From contig DULF01000177.1 in the NCBI GenBank assembly GCA_012840535.1, forward strand, positions 1-34,046: a stretch of 34,046 bases of DNA, written 5' to 3'. Position numbers and translations under genes: made by a program. Origin of the DNA: Clostridiaceae bacterium (GTDB lineage: Bacteria > Bacillota > Clostridia > Acetivibrionales > DUMB01). Positions 16,021-25,225 of the stretch are shown one piece after another. Within the stretch, counting starts at the first letter, position 1; the number at the start of each line of letters is the position of its first letter. The notes under the pieces are model-generated. The model had not been told where the DNA came from. It did not search any database and saw only the letters and a list, made by a program, of their open reading frames with translations.

Positions 16021-17298
16021 TTATACGTAAAAATTTTCAACTACCTCCATGGCTACCCTGGTCCATTCCTTAACGGCATTTATGTCTTTTCTGATTGTGT
16101 GTACGTCCTTGAGATTAATTTCCACATTGCAGCCTCTTGATTTTTCAAGTCCGTCAATCAGCGTTTTTCTTAGAAAATCAGCATCAAAGCCGTTGCATAA
16201 TGTGGATGAAGGATCAGGACGCCATGAAAAAACGTAGTCCCCCTGAATCTGTTCAGCGCATTTTTCGATATCAGCCCATGGCACTACTGCTACAGTCCTT
16301 AGGTTTTTTATTTTTTTCAGGTAGGGTATTTTATTTGTCAAATCTTCACAACATCCATAAGCACAGAGAGCATATTCTTCAGCAAGTATTTTATGGTAGC
16401 GTATTGCAAACTCATCTGTCATTTCCGGTGAAACGCAAGTAAATTCCTGGCCTTCAAAGAAGTGCCATAGTTCTTTACGTTTCACAGGTTTTGTGTCTGG
16501 TGAAGGATCTTCAAGTTCCTCACAGTATGGCATAGACTGGTTGAATTGATTAATAAGTCTCAGATCTCCTGCAGCTTCTGCTTGCGCATGCAAATCACGG
16601 ACAGATTCTGTCATAAAGCTGAGTACCTCATGCAGCCATTCAGGGTTTTCAATCATATCGATATATACCTGTTCAAGGCCGCGCAGCAAGCAGAGGTCAT
16701 GCAATATGCTACCTCCATATGTTCTTATCATGGGTCCTCTGTCCATAATAACGGGCATAATATCACCAATTAAATCGTTTACGGCATTAAAATGCTCTGC
16801 TGTTTTTTCTTCATCTATTATATGAACAGGCTTAGTCATTTTCTTAAAATCATCAAGTTCTACAATGACCGGATCAAATACCCATGCGCCTCTTTTTTCA
16901 GGACTGGGTTTCCTTTTAAATTCAACACCCCAAGTATTACTGCACCAATATAAATCGCCCATTTCAGGCGTGTTTTTATATGGCGCGCCGTATACTGAAC
17001 GCAGTACAACCCATGGTTCTATGACAGTATCATCACCTATCCAATCATGAAAAATGCATTGGCGAAAATAAATTTCAGCTTCACGGCAAGCAGGGTGTTG
17101 GCATTCAAGTGTTTCTTCGCTAGGATATACCTCTTCCCACCACATAAATCCGTTTACATTGACCATGGGGCGGACCATTTTCAACGAATTCAGTTTTCGC
17201 CATAATTCACGTCTTTCTTTTTGCTTCGGTTTATTTGCAATTTCCATAACCTGCGTTGCTAATTTTCGCAGAACATCTCGGTCATTTTTCGCACTCAT
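16021..17298 (-). CDS. Uroporphyrinogen decarboxylase (URO-D)-fold family protein, not heme-type; possible corrinoid/methyltransferase-like enzyme
   Basis: Overall resemblance to UroD/MtaA-like proteins (GGSILHDLCLLRGLEQVYIDMIENPEWLHEVL; AEEYALCAYGCCEDLTNKIPYLKKIKNLRTVAVVPWADIEKCAEQI). Confidence 0.7.
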   Translation of the reverse strand: MSAKNDRDVLRKLATQVMEIANKPKQKERRELWRKLNSLKMVRPMVNVNGFMWWEEVYPSEETLECQHPACREAEIYFRQCIFHDWIGDDTVIEPWVVLRSVYGAPYKNTPEMGDLYWCSNTWGVEFKRKPSPEKRGAWVFDPVIVELDDFKKMTKPVHIIDEEKTAEHFNAVNDLIGDIMPVIMDRGPMIRTYGGSILHDLCLLRGLEQVYIDMIENPEWLHEVLSFMTESVRDLHAQAEAAGDLRLINQFNQSMPYCEELEDPSPDTKPVKRKELWHFFEGQEFTCVSPEMTDEFAIRYHKILAEEYALCAYGCCEDLTNKIPYLKKIKNLRTVAVVPWADIEKCAEQIQGDYVFSWRPDPSSTLCNGFDADFLRKTLIDGLEKSRGCNVEINLKDVHTIRKDINAVKEWTRVAMEVVENFYV

Positions 17299-17684
17299 GA
17301 AAATGCCTCCTTGCAATAGATTTAACCGGTGGGACCATCCCTCTAAAAACTATTTTATAAGGATAACATTTTTGAAACAACGAATAAGTGTAGCATAATT
17401 TTGCAGCCTTAAAACAAAAAAGTGCAAACATAATCTTAACCTTTATAAGCTTTGCAAATATATGCTAATAAAAACAAAATAGGTTAAGCTTTTATTGTTG
17501 AAGCCCATTTTTGAGGAGAATATAATTTGATTAGCAGCTTATAATCGTGTGACCGTCCCTTGGTAAAAAAGTATTAAGTTTAAAAAGCTCTGGGTATTGT
17601 TTTGTTTGTCTTCAAACACAATTAAATCCCTTCCCGGTTTAATTTATGCGGTCAAAGACTTAATATTTTGGAGGTTTCATGTAA

Positions 17685-18695
17685 ATGTTGGACATTAAGC
17701 GCGACAATAAAAAAGGCAGTATAAAAAAATTTTTGAAATGGTTTTTTATTCGCCAGGAAAGCAGTATAATTATTGTTCTTGTTCTTTATTCCTTAATTGT
17801 AACATTAGTTAATCCAGTATTCATTTCAACAGCAAATGTTATCAATATTCTAAGGTCAACCGGATTCACATTAATAATGGTGGTCGGCATGACATTTGTA
17901 TTAATTACCGCAGGACTTGACTTGTCAGTAGGTGCTGTTTTTGCTCTGGGTGCGATAATCTGCGGTTTGTCCATGCAGGCAGGAATACCTATTATATTAT
18001 CAATTCTTTTAGGCATGTTGTCCGGACTTGTAATAGGAATATTTATTGGCACTGTGATAGTTAAAACAGGTATTCCTCCGCTGATTGTAACATTAGGAAT
18101 GATGTATGTTTGCAGGGGACTGGTTTCAATTATTACCAAGGGGGTCCCGGTATATCCGCTTCCGGAACAATTTATGTTAATAGAACAAACCAAAATTTTT
18201 AATAGTTTGCCTGTAATAATACTAATTTCAGTGGCAATTGCCGTTATCGGACATATAATTCTTTCAAAGACGGTATTCGGGCGGTCGGTATATGCAATAG
18301 GCGGAAATGAAGAAGCTGCTAAAATCTCGGGCATTAACATTACAAAAGTTAAAATGGCTGTGTACATTATGACTTCAACACTTGCAGCAATATCCGGAAT
18401 ACTGATGTCTTCAAGGCTTGGTTCAGCTGAGCCTGCTGCCGGTACAGGAATCGAACTTAAAGTTATAGCTGGTTCAATAATAGGAGGTATTTCCACTTTT
18501 GGTGGAATGGGTACCATTTTAGGAGCTTCATTAGGCGCGCTGTTTATGGAAGTGATGACTAACAGTCTAACCCTTATGAAAGTTTCCGTTTACTGGCAAA
18601 ACCTGGTCTTTGGCGTGATTCTTATAGCGTCCGTATTGCTTGACCAGTATAAGAGGAGACTTATTATACGCCAGTCTGTCAAGGCTAAGGATTAA
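17685..18695 (+). CDS. Ribose/xylose-type ABC transporter permease (RbsC family)
   Basis: Multi-TM; LITAGLDLSVGAVFALGAI, GGNEEAAKISGIN, GRSVYAIGGN, typical of the BPD_transp_2 family. Confidence 0.93.
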   Translation: MLDIKRDNKKGSIKKFLKWFFIRQESSIIIVLVLYSLIVTLVNPVFISTANVINILRSTGFTLIMVVGMTFVLITAGLDLSVGAVFALGAIICGLSMQAGIPIILSILLGMLSGLVIGIFIGTVIVKTGIPPLIVTLGMMYVCRGLVSIITKGVPVYPLPEQFMLIEQTKIFNSLPVIILISVAIAVIGHIILSKTVFGRSVYAIGGNEEAAKISGINITKVKMAVYIMTSTLAAISGILMSSRLGSAEPAAGTGIELKVIAGSIIGGISTFGGMGTILGASLGALFMEVMTNSLTLMKVSVYWQNLVFGVILIASVLLDQYKRRLIIRQSVKAKD

Positions 18696-18711
18696 GAAAG
18701 GAGGGGATTTC

Positions 18712-20238
18712 TTGAAGGAGAAAAGGGTTATTTTATCTGTCGAAAACATAACAAAAAGATTTCTTGGCACAGTTGCTTTAAATAAAGTTTCCATGGAACT
18801 GCGCGAAAATGAAATACTTGCAGTGATAGGCGAGAATGGGGCTGGAAAGTCTACACTTATGAAGATACTTAGTGGAATTTATTCTTCAAAAGAATATGAA
18901 GGAAATATTTATGTTAACAATAAGCTGTGCCAGTTTAGAAATCCGCATGACTCCGAAAATGCCGGCATTGCCATGATATACCAGGAACTTAATCTGGAAC
19001 TTGACTTAACCGTTGCAGAAAATATTCTGCTTGGGAGATATCCAAGAACGAAATTGGGATTTGTTGACTGGAAAAAGATGCGTAAAATGGCAAAAGAGGT
19101 ACTGGAAAGGTTACATGCCAATATTGATGTTAATGCTACTGTAAGAAGCTTGAGCCCTTCAATGCAGCAACTGGTATGTATAGCCAGGGCTTTGCTGAGA
19201 AATCCCAAGATCCTTATCCTTGATGAACCGACCTCGGTACTGACGGAAAATGAAACAAAAGTGTTTATGAACTTGTTGCATGAGATGAAAGAACAGGGGA
19301 TATCCTGCATTTATATTTCACATAAGCTGGACGAGGTGTTTCAGCTTTGTGACAGAGTTATAGTACTAAGAGACGGACAATTGATATGTGAATATGAAAA
19401 GAAACACGGATATGACAGCAAAAGCATAATTAATAGTATGATAGGCCGCAGGCTGGATGTAATGTATCCCCAAATTGAAAAAAAAGAAGATGACACTGAG
19501 CTCCTGCGCATTGAGAATTTCAGGGTTCCACACACTTCTGCGTACGGCAAAAGCATTATCAAGGATGTAAGTTTCAGCATCAAAAAAGGCGAGATACTGG
19601 GTTTAGCCGGTCTTGTCGGTTCAGGAAGATCAGAACTGGTAAATGCAATCTTCGGTCTTCTCCCAAAAACCAGCGGAAGGATATACATGGAGGGCAGGGA
19701 AGCGAAAATAAATAATCCCGAGGATGCTATAAAACTAGGCATAGGTCTACTGACAGAAGACAGAAAGAAAAACGGCTATGTCTGGTCAATGAGCATTGAG
19801 CATAATATGACGCTTGCAATATTGAGAGAATTAAGGAAAGGAATTTTTATTGATTCAAAAAAGGAACAGGAAATTGCAAAAGAATATTTCACTAAGCTGA
19901 ACGTTAAAGCGCCTGGCATTAAAACCCTTATAACAAGCCTTTCAGGAGGAAACCAGCAAAAAGTCATACTAGCCAGATGGCTTATGACCAAGCTGAAGTT
20001 GTTAATACTTGATGAACCTACTCGCGGCATTGATGTGGGAACAAAGGCTGAGATATATAAGCTTATGGTAGACCTTTCAAAAAGCGGCATTTCCATACTT
20101 ATGATTTCATCAGAGTTACCTGAATTGCTTGCTATGTGCGATAGGTTTATTGTGTTAGGCAAAGGCGTTGTTCAGGCAGAGTTGGAAAGAGGTGAGGCAA
20201 ATGAAGTAAATATTATGCAAGCAGCTTCAAATACATGA
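18712..20238 (+). CDS. Sugar ABC transporter ATP-binding protein, duplicated ABC domains (RbsA family)
   Basis: GENGAGKSTLMKILSG, second-domain GLVGSGRSELVNAIFG, LSGGNQQKVILARWL; TTG start at 18712 after aaaggagggg RBS. Confidence 0.94.
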   Translation: MKEKRVILSVENITKRFLGTVALNKVSMELRENEILAVIGENGAGKSTLMKILSGIYSSKEYEGNIYVNNKLCQFRNPHDSENAGIAMIYQELNLELDLTVAENILLGRYPRTKLGFVDWKKMRKMAKEVLERLHANIDVNATVRSLSPSMQQLVCIARALLRNPKILILDEPTSVLTENETKVFMNLLHEMKEQGISCIYISHKLDEVFQLCDRVIVLRDGQLICEYEKKHGYDSKSIINSMIGRRLDVMYPQIEKKEDDTELLRIENFRVPHTSAYGKSIIKDVSFSIKKGEILGLAGLVGSGRSELVNAIFGLLPKTSGRIYMEGREAKINNPEDAIKLGIGLLTEDRKKNGYVWSMSIEHNMTLAILRELRKGIFIDSKKEQEIAKEYFTKLNVKAPGIKTLITSLSGGNQQKVILARWLMTKLKLLILDEPTRGIDVGTKAEIYKLMVDLSKSGISILMISSELPELLAMCDRFIVLGKGVVQAELERGEANEVNIMQAASNT

Positions 20239-20295
20239 AATTCTTTATTATGGTAATTTTATTTCATGAACGAAGAAAAACGGGAGGTTACTATT

Positions 20296-21366
20296 ATGAA
20301 AAGAATTATTTTATTGTTAATGGTGTTAGTGTTAATAGTTTCATTTTCTGCATGCGGTACATCACAATCACCGAAAGAAGATACCGGAAAATCCACGACT
20401 GAAAATACAACTGAAAACAAAACTGAAGATGCAACAGCCGGCACTTCTGAAACCGATACTGCAAAAACCGATGATCCCTTGTATTTCGTTTATGTTTCAC
20501 CGCTTCTGTCACACCCTATCTGGCTCATTGCAAAGGAAGGCTTTGAAGATGCTTGCAAAGAGCTTGGCATTCAGGGTGACTGGGTAGGCCCGCAAGGAAT
20601 TTCTCCTGAGGAAATGGCTCAGCTGGTGGATACCGCAGTAGCACAAAAGGCTGATGCCATAATTACACAAGGTTTGGTTCCCGCAAAACCGGTTAATGAT
20701 GCAATAGCGGCGGGAATACCGGTAATAGTTGTAGACGGGGATATTGCCGAAGCAGAGGGCAAGCTGGCCTTTTTGGGAAAAGACCTTAAAAAGCAGGCAA
20801 AACTGTTATATGACTGGGTAGCAAGCAAAATTCCGGCTGACACCAAAATTGTATATTCAATTCAGTGTGCTGCTCTTAATGCCCAGGTGTATATTGACCA
20901 AAACAAATATATTGAAGAAGCTTTTTCACAGCACCCGGGCGGAGCGGAACTTGTTAACATTACGACTTCTGAAGGGGACAAGATGAAAGGTACAACAGAA
21001 TGGCAGAACACATTCAACACTTATCCGGATATAAATGTAGCTATAAATGTTACAGCTGACGGAGCTGTTTCATGTGCAAGAGTTGCTGAAGAAATGGGCA
21101 TCCAGGACAAAGTCCTTATATTTGGTGTTGACGACATTCAAGAGACTCTTGACCTTATCAGGCAAGATAAGATAGAAGGTACGATAGTTACTTCTTTCTA
21201 TAACTATGGATACCAGGCTACATACTGGTTATATCAACATATAACTGAAGGAAGAGTGCCGGAGCAGAAGTTTAATGATGCAGGTACCATAATCGTTACA
21301 AAGGAAAACATAGATACTTACGCTGAACAACTCAGGCAGAAGGTAGATCTTCCTCCGAAGAAATAA
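20296..21366 (+). CDS. Sugar ABC transporter substrate-binding lipoprotein (type 1 periplasmic-binding fold)
   Basis: Signal peptide with lipobox VSFSAC|G; Peripla_BP_4-like fold (LVDTAVAQKADAIITQGL, IPVIVVDGDI, VLIFGVDDIQETLDLI). Confidence 0.92.
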   Translation: MKRIILLLMVLVLIVSFSACGTSQSPKEDTGKSTTENTTENKTEDATAGTSETDTAKTDDPLYFVYVSPLLSHPIWLIAKEGFEDACKELGIQGDWVGPQGISPEEMAQLVDTAVAQKADAIITQGLVPAKPVNDAIAAGIPVIVVDGDIAEAEGKLAFLGKDLKKQAKLLYDWVASKIPADTKIVYSIQCAALNAQVYIDQNKYIEEAFSQHPGGAELVNITTSEGDKMKGTTEWQNTFNTYPDINVAINVTADGAVSCARVAEEMGIQDKVLIFGVDDIQETLDLIRQDKIEGTIVTSFYNYGYQATYWLYQHITEGRVPEQKFNDAGTIIVTKENIDTYAEQLRQKVDLPPKK

Positions 21367-21409
21367 TATAGAGAGTGTTTGCAAGGGCGGGGATGATATT
21401 CATGTTAAG

Positions 21410-21451
21410 TTGCTCCACGAGAAAATGATTCTTGCGGAGCAATTTTCTTTT
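21410..21451 (+). terminator. Hairpin/terminator between binding protein and kinase genes
   Basis: TTGCTCC ac GAGAA...TTCTtgc GGAGCAA followed by TTTTCTTTT. Confidence 0.65.
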
Positions 21452-21515
21452 ATGTATATTAGTGAGTACTATACTTGTTGTCCAGTTAAAAAAGAAAGGA
21501 GCTCGCTTTGAAAAT

Positions 21516-23000
21516 ATGAACAGTGACAATGCGAGATACGGGAGTATTAAGAATAAACTGGTAATGTTTCTTGTTTCAATTCTTGTTGCCATGATATTGG
21601 TTTCTGTTATTAGCAATGTTTCGGGTTATAGTTATATTATAGCCTTTGAACAAGGTTTTGAATCGTATAACCAGTTGAGCTTGTTTTATAAAAATGCGGA
21701 GCTGATGAGCAAAAACGGCTTAAATTTTGTTTACTCCAATAAGGATGAAGATTATGAAGAATATAAAGTCATGCTTAAATCAGCGCGTGACAACTTGAAT
21801 GCGATAAAACGCATGAGCGAACATAAACATACCATATGGAGAATAACTCTTCTTGAAAACATGTTGGACACCTACTCCGAGAAAGTTAATAAATATGTTG
21901 AACAAACAGACTTCAGCAGGGAGGATTCAGTAACTTTATACAATGATTTGTATAGACTTGAAAATTTGATTACAAAAACATTTACCAATTACTATAATAT
22001 TATTTCCCAAGACGTGCAGTTAAAACTGAAAAGGTTGCGCTTGTCATGCTACATCCAGTTTGCTGTTGTGCTGCTACTAATAGCTGCATCCATATTTGCC
22101 GGTTTTGTTTTTGCAAATAATGCAATGAAAGGCATAACCAAGCCAATAAATGAGATCGTGGACAATATCCAGCTGATCAAGAGGGGAGAATATGAAATAA
22201 AAAAAATAAGAGGCGCAGCTAAAGAGCTTAATATTCTGCTGATGACCTTCGATGAAATGGCAAAGAGCATAAAGGAACATATTCAAAACCTTAAAGAGAA
22301 AGCCCAGCTTGAAAAGAAACTGTTGGAAAAAGAGAATGAAAATCTTCGTATAACAAACCTTCTTGCAGAAACAAAACTAAAATCACTGCAATCACAGATA
22401 AATCCGAATTTTCTTTTCAATACCCTCAGCATGCTGTCAAAGAATGCATATATTGAAGGAGCCTTAGATACCAGCATGCTGATGGAAAACCTGTCAGAAT
22501 TGCTGCGTTACAGCCTGGAAAAATCAAACAAAGTATCAAGTATAAAGGAAGAAATTGAATTTATTAAAAATTATTTCTTAATCCAGCAGAAACGTTATGG
22601 AAACAGGGTAAAGTTTTTACTGAACGTAAAAGACAATCTCCCAAATATAAAGCTTCCTGCCATGATATTACAACCATTGGTGGAAAACAGCCTCATTCAT
22701 GGTGTAAATAATATCTCGGACGGGGCGGTTGTATCAGTAAAAGCGTATTGTTATAATAATAATGTATATATTCAAGTCGAGGATAATGGTGCAGGTATGG
22801 ATTCAGACACATTAGAGGCAATACAGTCAAAATTCAAGCACTCTGTTTTTGACAGTAAGGTTGAACAAAGTACCAATATAGGTTTATACAATGTGTACAA
22901 AAGACTTGAAATGTACTATGGTTCTCAGTTTAAATTTTTAATAGAGAGTGAAAGGAACTGCGGTACAATAATTACAATTGTGCTTCCTTTGGTTTATTAA
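21516..23000 (+). CDS. LytS/YesM-type sensor kinase (HAMP + His_kinase PF06580 + HATPase) with Asn at expected phospho-acceptor His
   Basis: Two TMs, HAMP-like linker, SLQSQINPNFLFNTLSML, ILQPLVENSLIHG, VEDNGAGMDSD, NIGLYNVYKRL. Confidence 0.9.
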   Translation: MNSDNARYGSIKNKLVMFLVSILVAMILVSVISNVSGYSYIIAFEQGFESYNQLSLFYKNAELMSKNGLNFVYSNKDEDYEEYKVMLKSARDNLNAIKRMSEHKHTIWRITLLENMLDTYSEKVNKYVEQTDFSREDSVTLYNDLYRLENLITKTFTNYYNIISQDVQLKLKRLRLSCYIQFAVVLLLIAASIFAGFVFANNAMKGITKPINEIVDNIQLIKRGEYEIKKIRGAAKELNILLMTFDEMAKSIKEHIQNLKEKAQLEKKLLEKENENLRITNLLAETKLKSLQSQINPNFLFNTLSMLSKNAYIEGALDTSMLMENLSELLRYSLEKSNKVSSIKEEIEFIKNYFLIQQKRYGNRVKFLLNVKDNLPNIKLPAMILQPLVENSLIHGVNNISDGAVVSVKAYCYNNNVYIQVEDNGAGMDSDTLEAIQSKFKHSVFDSKVEQSTNIGLYNVYKRLEMYYGSQFKFLIESERNCGTIITIVLPLVY

Positions 23001-23027: not shown

Positions 23028-24581
23028 ATGTACAGATTGATGATAGTGGAAGATGAACCGGTTGAGCGTCAGGCATTAAAACTTTTACTGGAATTAAATT
23101 GCAAAGAGATAGAAGTCGTATCCGTGTGTGAAAATGGTATAGAAGCAATAGATTCTTTCTATAAAACCAGGCCAGAGATTGTTATTATGGACATTAATCT
23201 TCCAATACTGAATGGATTGGATGCAATACGGGAAATGCAAAAGAAAGCAGTTAACACAAAGTTTATAGTGATATCTTCCTACAATACATTCAATTACGCA
23301 AAAGAAGCACTTAAGTTAGGAGTGCATGATTTCATTCTCAAACCCGCAAAATTGTCCGTTATATTAGAATCCATAAATTCCGCAATTGCTGTACTGGAAA
23401 ACGAAATTTCTACAGAAAAATACAAAAATAGCCTGATTGAGCGGATAAACAGCATAAAGCCTATTATTGAAAGCGATTTTGTGCATGCGATTACTTCCCA
23501 TAAACAACGCGAAGAATTGAATAAAATACTGGAATTCATGGACTTAAAAGTAAAATCCGCATTTTCTTTTGTTGTGCATTGTGAACATACCAGGCTGCCG
23601 CTTGTTGAAAGAGTGAAGGAACAGCTTGAAAAAATAGGTATAGCGTGTATCGGAGACCGTCTGAACGGTATCATTGTATTTTTTATACTCTCTTCTGAAG
23701 AATTGGGAACAAAAAAAGCTGACGAAATAAGAAGATTGTGCTGCATGATACTGAGTGAAACAATTACAGGGAATTACAACATTGGTTTCGGAAATATTAC
23801 AGCAGATATTGACGGTTTAAAAGAATCGTATAACCAGGCATTAAAAACGCTTTCCTATGCTCAGGCCAAAGGTATCTGTTCATTGAATTATTCTGAAATT
23901 GATGACGAAAATATTCAATCAGAAATTGACATTGACATGTTTGCAAAAGAAATGGCTGTTTCAATAGTCAATTCAGATAAGCAAAAGCTTCAGAATTGTA
24001 TCGACAACTTTTCAAATAAATTATTGTTATTTTATCAGACATACGGTATCTCATTTGTAAGGGAAAACGTATACAACCTGTTAATGTATATATACCGCGA
24101 GGTATCAGATAAATTAGGGAGCGGTACACTGCAAAATGAACATGGAATTGTATATGAGCGCTTAATTGCTATCAATGATATGAGTTTAATGAGGGATTTT
24201 TTAAACAGCCACATCAATAAGCTTGTTATGGACGTTAATGAATTTAAAAATGAACAATCCAACAACCTGGTTTCAAATGTAGTCAACTATATTCAGGAAA
24301 ATTTTTCGAAGAACATTACTCTTGCCGGTGTTGCTGAAGCTTTTGACATTTCGCCCTTTTATCTTTGTAAACTTATTAAAAAACAGACAGGGAAAAATTT
24401 CACTGATATTTTAACAGCTTGCAGGATAGAAAAAGCAAAAGAATTTTTGCTTAATCAAAATATGAGCGTAAAGGAAGTTACCTTTGAAGTGGGATTTAGC
24501 AGTCAAAACTATTTTACGAAGGTATTCCGGAAATACTGCGGGCTTACTCCGTCAGAATATAAAAATAACAGAAAAACATAA
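23028..24581 (+). CDS. YesN-type response regulator (receiver + AraC HTH)
   Basis: MYRLMIVEDEPVERQAL, IVIMDINLPILNGLDA, VHDFILKPAKL; C-terminal AraC HTH ITLAGVAEAFDISPFYLCKLIKKQTGKNFTDIL...VGFSSQNYFTKVFRKYCGLTPSEYK. Confidence 0.95.
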   Translation: MYRLMIVEDEPVERQALKLLLELNCKEIEVVSVCENGIEAIDSFYKTRPEIVIMDINLPILNGLDAIREMQKKAVNTKFIVISSYNTFNYAKEALKLGVHDFILKPAKLSVILESINSAIAVLENEISTEKYKNSLIERINSIKPIIESDFVHAITSHKQREELNKILEFMDLKVKSAFSFVVHCEHTRLPLVERVKEQLEKIGIACIGDRLNGIIVFFILSSEELGTKKADEIRRLCCMILSETITGNYNIGFGNITADIDGLKESYNQALKTLSYAQAKGICSLNYSEIDDENIQSEIDIDMFAKEMAVSIVNSDKQKLQNCIDNFSNKLLLFYQTYGISFVRENVYNLLMYIYREVSDKLGSGTLQNEHGIVYERLIAINDMSLMRDFLNSHINKLVMDVNEFKNEQSNNLVSNVVNYIQENFSKNITLAGVAEAFDISPFYLCKLIKKQTGKNFTDILTACRIEKAKEFLLNQNMSVKEVTFEVGFSSQNYFTKVFRKYCGLTPSEYKNNRKT

Positions 24582-24646: not shown

Positions 24647-25225
24647 ATGAAACAGCACCTGGAGGGAATTGATATACTTAGGGTAATTACGGGAACTGCA
24701 AGGGGACATAAGCTTAAAACAGTTAAAGGTTTAAACACCAGACCTACATCTGATAAAGTAAAGGGAGCGCTTTTTAATATTTTAGCCGGACGTATAGAAG
24801 GAAGCAATGTCCTGGATCTTTTTGCAGGAACCGGTAATCTTGGAATAGAAGCATTAAGCAGGGGTGCCGCCTCAGCTGTGTTTATAGACAAGAGCCCTGA
24901 ATGCATATCCGTTATAAAAGAAAACCTTAAACACACTAAGCTTGAGGAGAGAGCAACAGTTATTCCGGGCGACGTGATGGCAGTTTTAAAAAAAATGTCA
25001 AATAACTTTAAAAAATATGATATAATTTTTATGGATCCACCATATAATAAAAATTTAATTCAAGATACATTGAAGATTATAGAAGAAAACGGCATAATAA
25101 AAAATGATGGCATAGTAGTTGTAGAAAAAAGCGCAAAGGATGATACGGCATTAAACTTGGAAAAGCTAAAGCTTTTCAGGGTTAAAAGGTACGGAGATAC
25201 GGTTTTATCATTTTTCACAACATAA
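24647..25225 (+). CDS. rsmD: 16S rRNA (guanine(966)-N2)-methyltransferase
   Basis: RVITGTARGHKLKTVKGLNTRPTSDKVKGALFNIL, DLFAGTGNLGIEALSRGA, IIFMDPPYN; start codon uncertain. Confidence 0.93.
   Translation: MKQHLEGIDILRVITGTARGHKLKTVKGLNTRPTSDKVKGALFNILAGRIEGSNVLDLFAGTGNLGIEALSRGAASAVFIDKSPECISVIKENLKHTKLEERATVIPGDVMAVLKKMSNNFKKYDIIFMDPPYNKNLIQDTLKIIEENGIIKNDGIVVVEKSAKDDTALNLEKLKLFRVKRYGDTVLSFFTT

Follow-up and report, generated by a model that had tools for sequence, protein, structure and literature searches.

A LytS/YesM-type sensor kinase encoded in the DNA analyzed here (a stretch of 34,046 nucleotides, hereafter the window) carries Asn at the position of the phospho-acceptor His. On balance, and with confidence somewhat better than even, we regard this as a recent, lineage-specific loss of autokinase activity through one acceptor substitution in the sensor of a sugar three-component system. 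Sequence and translation place the altered codon, AAT, at positions 22407-22409 of the plus strand, within an H-box that reads QINPNFLFN (22395-22421, plus strand) where QINPHFLFN is usual for the kinase family. A sequence-only reading of the window had singled out the surrounding motif, SLQSQINPNFLFNTLSML (22380-22430), as a replacement of the acceptor His and had proposed an alignment of orthologs as a check. That alignment bears the claim out: all 56 relatives, a set that includes paralogs from the same genome, have His in the acceptor column, and the window kinase alone has Asn. The His is likewise present in the kinase of the ortholog cassette described below.

The kinase gene extends to position 23000 on the plus strand and likely starts at ATG 21516, judging from the sequence AAAGGAG just before this codon. 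The mechanical open reading frame runs from TTG 21432 to 23000 (522 aa), with the AAT codon in frame; the altered residue is number 298 of 494 when counted from ATG 21516 and number 326 when counted from TTG 21432. The product consists of a helical extracellular sensor followed by HAMP, DHp, and CA regions, and its HAMP/His_kinase/HATPase architecture is uninterrupted, with scores of 78.3 bits against the Pfam family His_kinase (PF06580; curated cut-off 25.2) and 42.6 bits against HATPase_c (PF02518). The ATP-binding boxes had been described as intact from the translation, and the alignment agrees: every invariant or near-invariant E, N, D, and G of the N, G1, and G2 boxes is present, and the N-box, ENSLIHG (22683-22703, plus strand), has its conserved E, N, H, and G. 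A lost N-box lysine was considered as a second lesion and rejected, the alignment placing this position outside the conserved columns of the family. Four residues after the acceptor lies an Asn (AAT, 22419-22421, plus strand) that is invariant in 56 of 56 relatives and is a candidate phosphatase residue; from Staphylococcus aureus LytS work we take it to be the residue that serves this function in the family. The cytoplasmic part of the protein contains only three His: His 283 in the linker helix that follows HAMP, His 423, which is the conserved one of the N-box, and His 470 in the ATP-lid region. A residue scan of this part found none in the phosphotransfer helix.

The rarity of the substitution was assessed at several taxonomic depths. 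At the DNA level, the pattern [IVM]NPHF[LIMF][FY]N occurs 440 times in 58 genomes of the order, and the same pattern with an acceptor codon not starting with C occurs 10 times. These 10 comprise the window kinase, one locus (L072) whose variable position is a stop codon, and eight matches in non-kinase frames of 14-113 aa; the other Asn, Ser, Tyr, Cys, and Gly matches in the order were accordingly set aside as chance occurrences outside kinase frames. Leu, Pro, and Arg codons were also absent from the acceptor position in the 58 genomes. Over the residues searched, which were all but Gln, the genomes of the order thus contain no other real kinase with an acceptor replacement. Wider scans gave the same picture: INPNFLFN was found in no other of 391 genomes in a class sample, and QINPNF[LIMF][FY]N in no other of 399 genomes in a phylum sample, nor in 119 relatives. 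Given a census of 440 to 1 and the scans of the class and phylum samples, the His-to-Asn substitution is rare and, as far as the present data go, confined to this genome, and a common Asn variant of the H-box motif is ruled out. The observation clearly exceeds chance. Nor is the loss common to orthologs, since the nearest ortholog has the His and the Asn motif appears in no other genome. A literature search, which covered few subscription papers, found no published report of a LytS/YesM kinase without the acceptor His.

Five genes follow one another on the plus strand here, encoding in order a permease, an ATPase, a binding protein, the kinase, and a regulator. The first is a sugar ABC transporter permease of the ribose/xylose type (17685-18695; BPD_transp_2, PF02653, E 4.6e-45), and the second a two-domain sugar ABC transporter ATPase (18640-20238) whose best NCBIfam model, the xylose ATPase, scores below its cut-off. 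The third is a lipoprotein sugar-binding protein (20266-21366; Peripla_BP_4, PF13407, E 1.5e-43), the likely extracellular partner of the sensor kinase. The last gene encodes an AraC-type, YesN-like response regulator (23028-24581; PF00072, PF12833, and PF17853) with receiver, GGDEF-like, and HTH_18 domains, and its receiver Asp and Lys, which the sequence-only reading had reported as kept, are indeed found in the MDINLP and LKPAK motifs of the translation. Upstream of the cassette, a 431-aa open reading frame on the minus strand (window positions 16021-17316) is without a Pfam or NCBIfam match; downstream, the open frames at 24647 and 25249 look rsmD-like and coaD-like, respectively, as judged by eye from their translations.

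Structural comparisons add to this picture. The nearest solved structures to the binding protein are 6gq0, 5xss/5xsj/5xsd, and 6sw4, and the nearest solved relative of the kinase core is 6swj/6swk (E 1.4e-40), so that the kinase fold is already represented by solved homologs (6swj and 5xsj). A subfamily profile of 17 rows, one of them the window sensor, hits 5xsd_L and 5xsj_L, the sensor chains of LytS (E about 1e-9); the window sensor sequence by itself does not reach these chains. As judged from its gene neighbors and from the structural matches of the binding protein, kinase core, and sensor profile, the cassette encodes a three-component sugar system (binding protein, kinase, and regulator) of the XylFII-LytS-YesN kind, a class discussed previously (PMC10384115).

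A strong predicted hairpin followed by a T-rich tract (21407-21452, plus strand; -20.2 kcal/mol, z -5.9) separates the binding-protein gene from the kinase gene. It is probably a terminator, perhaps a partial one, that reduces expression of the kinase and regulator, and it could set the transporter-to-sensor expression ratio. A consensus terminator scan of the window did not include it among its hits.

An identical five-gene order was found in one ortholog cassette (L064, containing kinase L028) of a genome from another family of the same order (G010). Its proteins share 62% (permease), 67% (ATPase), 66% (binding protein), 41% (kinase), and 36% (regulator) identity with those of the window, and it is the only ortholog found with high identity across the whole cassette. 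By domain, the two kinases are 57% identical in DHp, 46% in the ATPase domain, 44% in the HAMP/linker region, and 26% in the sensor, and the H-box of the ortholog reads QMNPHFLMN, with the His present. All five gene families also occur together at L065, L067, and L068. At L065, from a sister genus of the same family (G001), identities are just 28-44% and the gene order is unlike that of the window, the transporter genes lying downstream of the genes for binding protein, kinase, and regulator. A scan for close relatives among GTDB contigs, which may not include the same or a very near genome, returned two remote loci only, titled Salinivirgaceae and Marinoscillum.

Apart from the acceptor, the protein bears no marks of decay. 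Twenty alignment columns are conserved in at least 94% of relatives, and the window kinase differs at two of these, through the His-to-Asn change and one Gly-to-Ala change that falls within the ATP-binding domain; several kinases of the same genome that retain the His differ at two or more of the same columns. The kinase core has a branch length of 0.468, versus 0.495 for the His-bearing ortholog, and none of the relative-rate tests on the kinase was significant. An old pseudogene under relaxed constraint is unsupported by these branch lengths and tests. Had the 20 columns been unconstrained over the whole branch, about 7.5 changes would be expected even at the domain-average rate, versus the 2 seen; a rough calculation on these columns puts the probability of two or fewer changes at about 0.007. 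Because of this shortfall, the alignment indicates that either the His was lost late or the protein is still constrained for something besides autophosphorylation. As for the regulator, the branch length of its receiver and middle region is about twice that of the ortholog, and its DNA-binding domain is not longer; nine relative-rate tests over three domains gave one nominally significant result (middle region, p = 0.03).

The genome contains 26 PF06580 matches: one in the window kinase, one in each of 23 further kinases, and two in a single kinase split by a frameshift. The other kinases of the family belong to a different, longer class, with open frames from about 590 aa upward, and the best identity between the window kinase and any paralog is about 32%. 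Given this difference in class and identity, the genome appears to hold no obvious candidate for a heterodimer partner. The frameshifted kinase, also of the LytS/YesM type, lies on another contig (G000:C78:19811-20046; L025 and L026) and is interrupted soon after an intact INPHFLYN motif; it adjoins a fragmentary regulator-like open reading frame and represents either a pseudogene or a local assembly error.

Four interpretations had been put forward from the translation alone, and they fared unequally. The proposal of a pseudokinase is supported, because the acceptor is gone while all else is intact, and a recent one-base loss is the most economical account, because the ortholog and relatives keep the His and signs of older decay are absent. 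The two remaining proposals lost ground. A role as regulator of another kinase is weakened by the class and low identity of the other kinases in the genome, and action of the ChrS/HrrS or RocA/CovS type is rendered less likely by the lack of a close short-sensor paralog. Use of another acceptor is disfavored because none of the remaining His lies in the phosphotransfer helix; thus, although the catalytic domain is intact, we think it very improbable that the kinase is still active through such a residue or that phosphate is accepted in a heterodimer with a normal paralog, the best of which is so distant. These gradings, like those that follow, are judgments rather than computed values.

The preferred reading, a recent loss of the acceptor, has to be weighed against the nature of the data, which come from one genome in a 240-contig assembly, the sole representative of its species and genus in the comparison. 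An error in base calling or in the consensus would likewise yield a single observation of this kind, as would a minority or strain allele, the real population then carrying a normal His kinase, and the fully functional appearance of the rest of the protein is what would be expected if the true sequence were normal. Consensus errors are, however, not common at this codon, the Asn being the sole case among 441 motifs in 58 genomes, and the other aligned family kinases of the same assembly have the His; we consider it unlikely, though a possibility of some weight, that the Asn is not fixed. If the allele is real and kinase-dead, two overlapping sub-cases can be considered. The substitution may be the first step of ordinary decay in a system that is no longer needed, leaving a dead kinase without a role. 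The frameshifted kinase locus on contig C78, which also counts against the preferred reading as a sign of decay or local error elsewhere in the genome, and the longer branch of the regulator receiver and middle region in this lineage would fit such decay; yet none of the five cassette genes has an interrupted frame, the transporter and binding protein show good conservation, and the rate tests are mostly non-significant, as are all but one of the nine on the regulator domains. Decay of this kind is rather unlikely in our estimation. Less probable still is an old, selected loss that produced a stable repurposed pseudokinase, such as a sugar-gated phosphatase or a DivL-like sensor of the phosphorylated regulator. 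Retention of the ATP site, docking helix, and invariant downstream Asn, together with the unaccelerated kinase core, would suit stable repurposing, and precedents exist in DivL, which has Tyr at the acceptor position (PMC4211667), RocA (PMC7028121), and ChrS (PMC9491836); nevertheless, the Asn occurs in no second genome, and hence there is no sign of evolutionary retention.

With Asn at the acceptor position, phosphohistidine cannot form there. The window kinase would then be unable to autophosphorylate or donate phosphate, and it would presumably still fold, dimerize, bind ATP, and dock the regulator. It may thus bind or dephosphorylate the regulator in a signal-gated manner, with acetyl phosphate charging the regulator; in an alternative outcome, the operon would not rise above its basal, unphosphorylated level. 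The kinase probably binds or dephosphorylates the regulator rather than phosphorylating it, and, provided that the Asn is genuine, the usual route by which sugar would activate the regulator through the kinase is predicted to be closed. In S. aureus, LytS is both a kinase and a phosphatase, with higher phosphatase activity in the presence of ATP; acetyl phosphate charges its regulator more rapidly than LytS does (PMC4830213). Work on other kinases bears on whether a phosphatase can persist without the acceptor: a His-to-Ala change in CrdS (H371A) reduced phosphatase activity but did not abolish it, the acceptor His of EnvZ is described as not required for dephosphorylation (PMC3510030), and the acceptor His of the DesK family has no role in dephosphorylation (PMC7005713).

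The window cassette resembles XylFII-LytS-YesN of Clostridium beijerinckii in its sugar-binding lipoprotein, its short helical sensor with HAMP and a His_kinase core, its AraC-type regulator, its adjoining sugar ABC transporter, and its matches to the structures 5xsd/5xsj and 5xss/5xsj. Unlike that system, it has Asn in place of the acceptor His, and its one binding protein may have a part in transport as well as in sensing. AraPST of Geobacillus stearothermophilus, to which we take 6swj/6swk and 6gq0 to belong, is similar in its kinase core (6swj/6swk), which begins QSQINPHFLFN, and in its binding protein (6gq0), but its kinase retains the His. S. aureus LytS has the same DHp class and differs in its 5TM sensor, its LytTR regulator, and the presence of the His. 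As in DivL, a pseudo-histidine kinase of Caulobacter, the acceptor His is replaced and the kinase fold kept; DivL, however, belongs to the HisKA family and has Tyr rather than Asn, and the change in the window kinase is not common to its relatives. DivL binds ATP weakly, lacks phosphatase activity, and senses phospho-DivK (PMC4211667), whereas the ATP site of the window kinase looks normal. RocA and ChrS are catalytically dead sensor kinases that still act, via CovS and HrrS, respectively (PMC7028121, PMC9491836). In these two it is the catalytic domain that is degenerate or truncated, not the acceptor that is lost, and they work with a partner kinase, for which the window genome offers no obvious candidate.

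By the absence of the acceptor His from an otherwise kinase-like protein, the window kinase is a probable pseudo-histidine kinase. Acceptor-less histidine kinases are already known, as exemplified by DivL, and the present case would be another, in the LytS/YesM class. A bolder interpretation, which we hold to be improbable, is that one residue turned a bifunctional LytS/YesM sensor into a sugar-gated phosphatase or sensor of the phosphorylated regulator, giving an inverted sugar circuit and possibly the first natural acceptor-less LytS/YesM kinase; in such a circuit, the sugar signal would work by removal of phosphate supplied by acetyl phosphate. Should the allele be only a recent null or an artefact, it would be unremarkable. 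Its interest, provided that reads and sister strains bear it out, is mainly that of a clean natural variant: the acceptor His is nearly invariant in the class, and its replacement with the rest of the protein intact thus amounts to a clean natural experiment on a kinase-less LytS/YesM sensor. If real and maintained, the allele would show a single-step route from a sensor kinase to a phosphatase-only or binding-only regulator.
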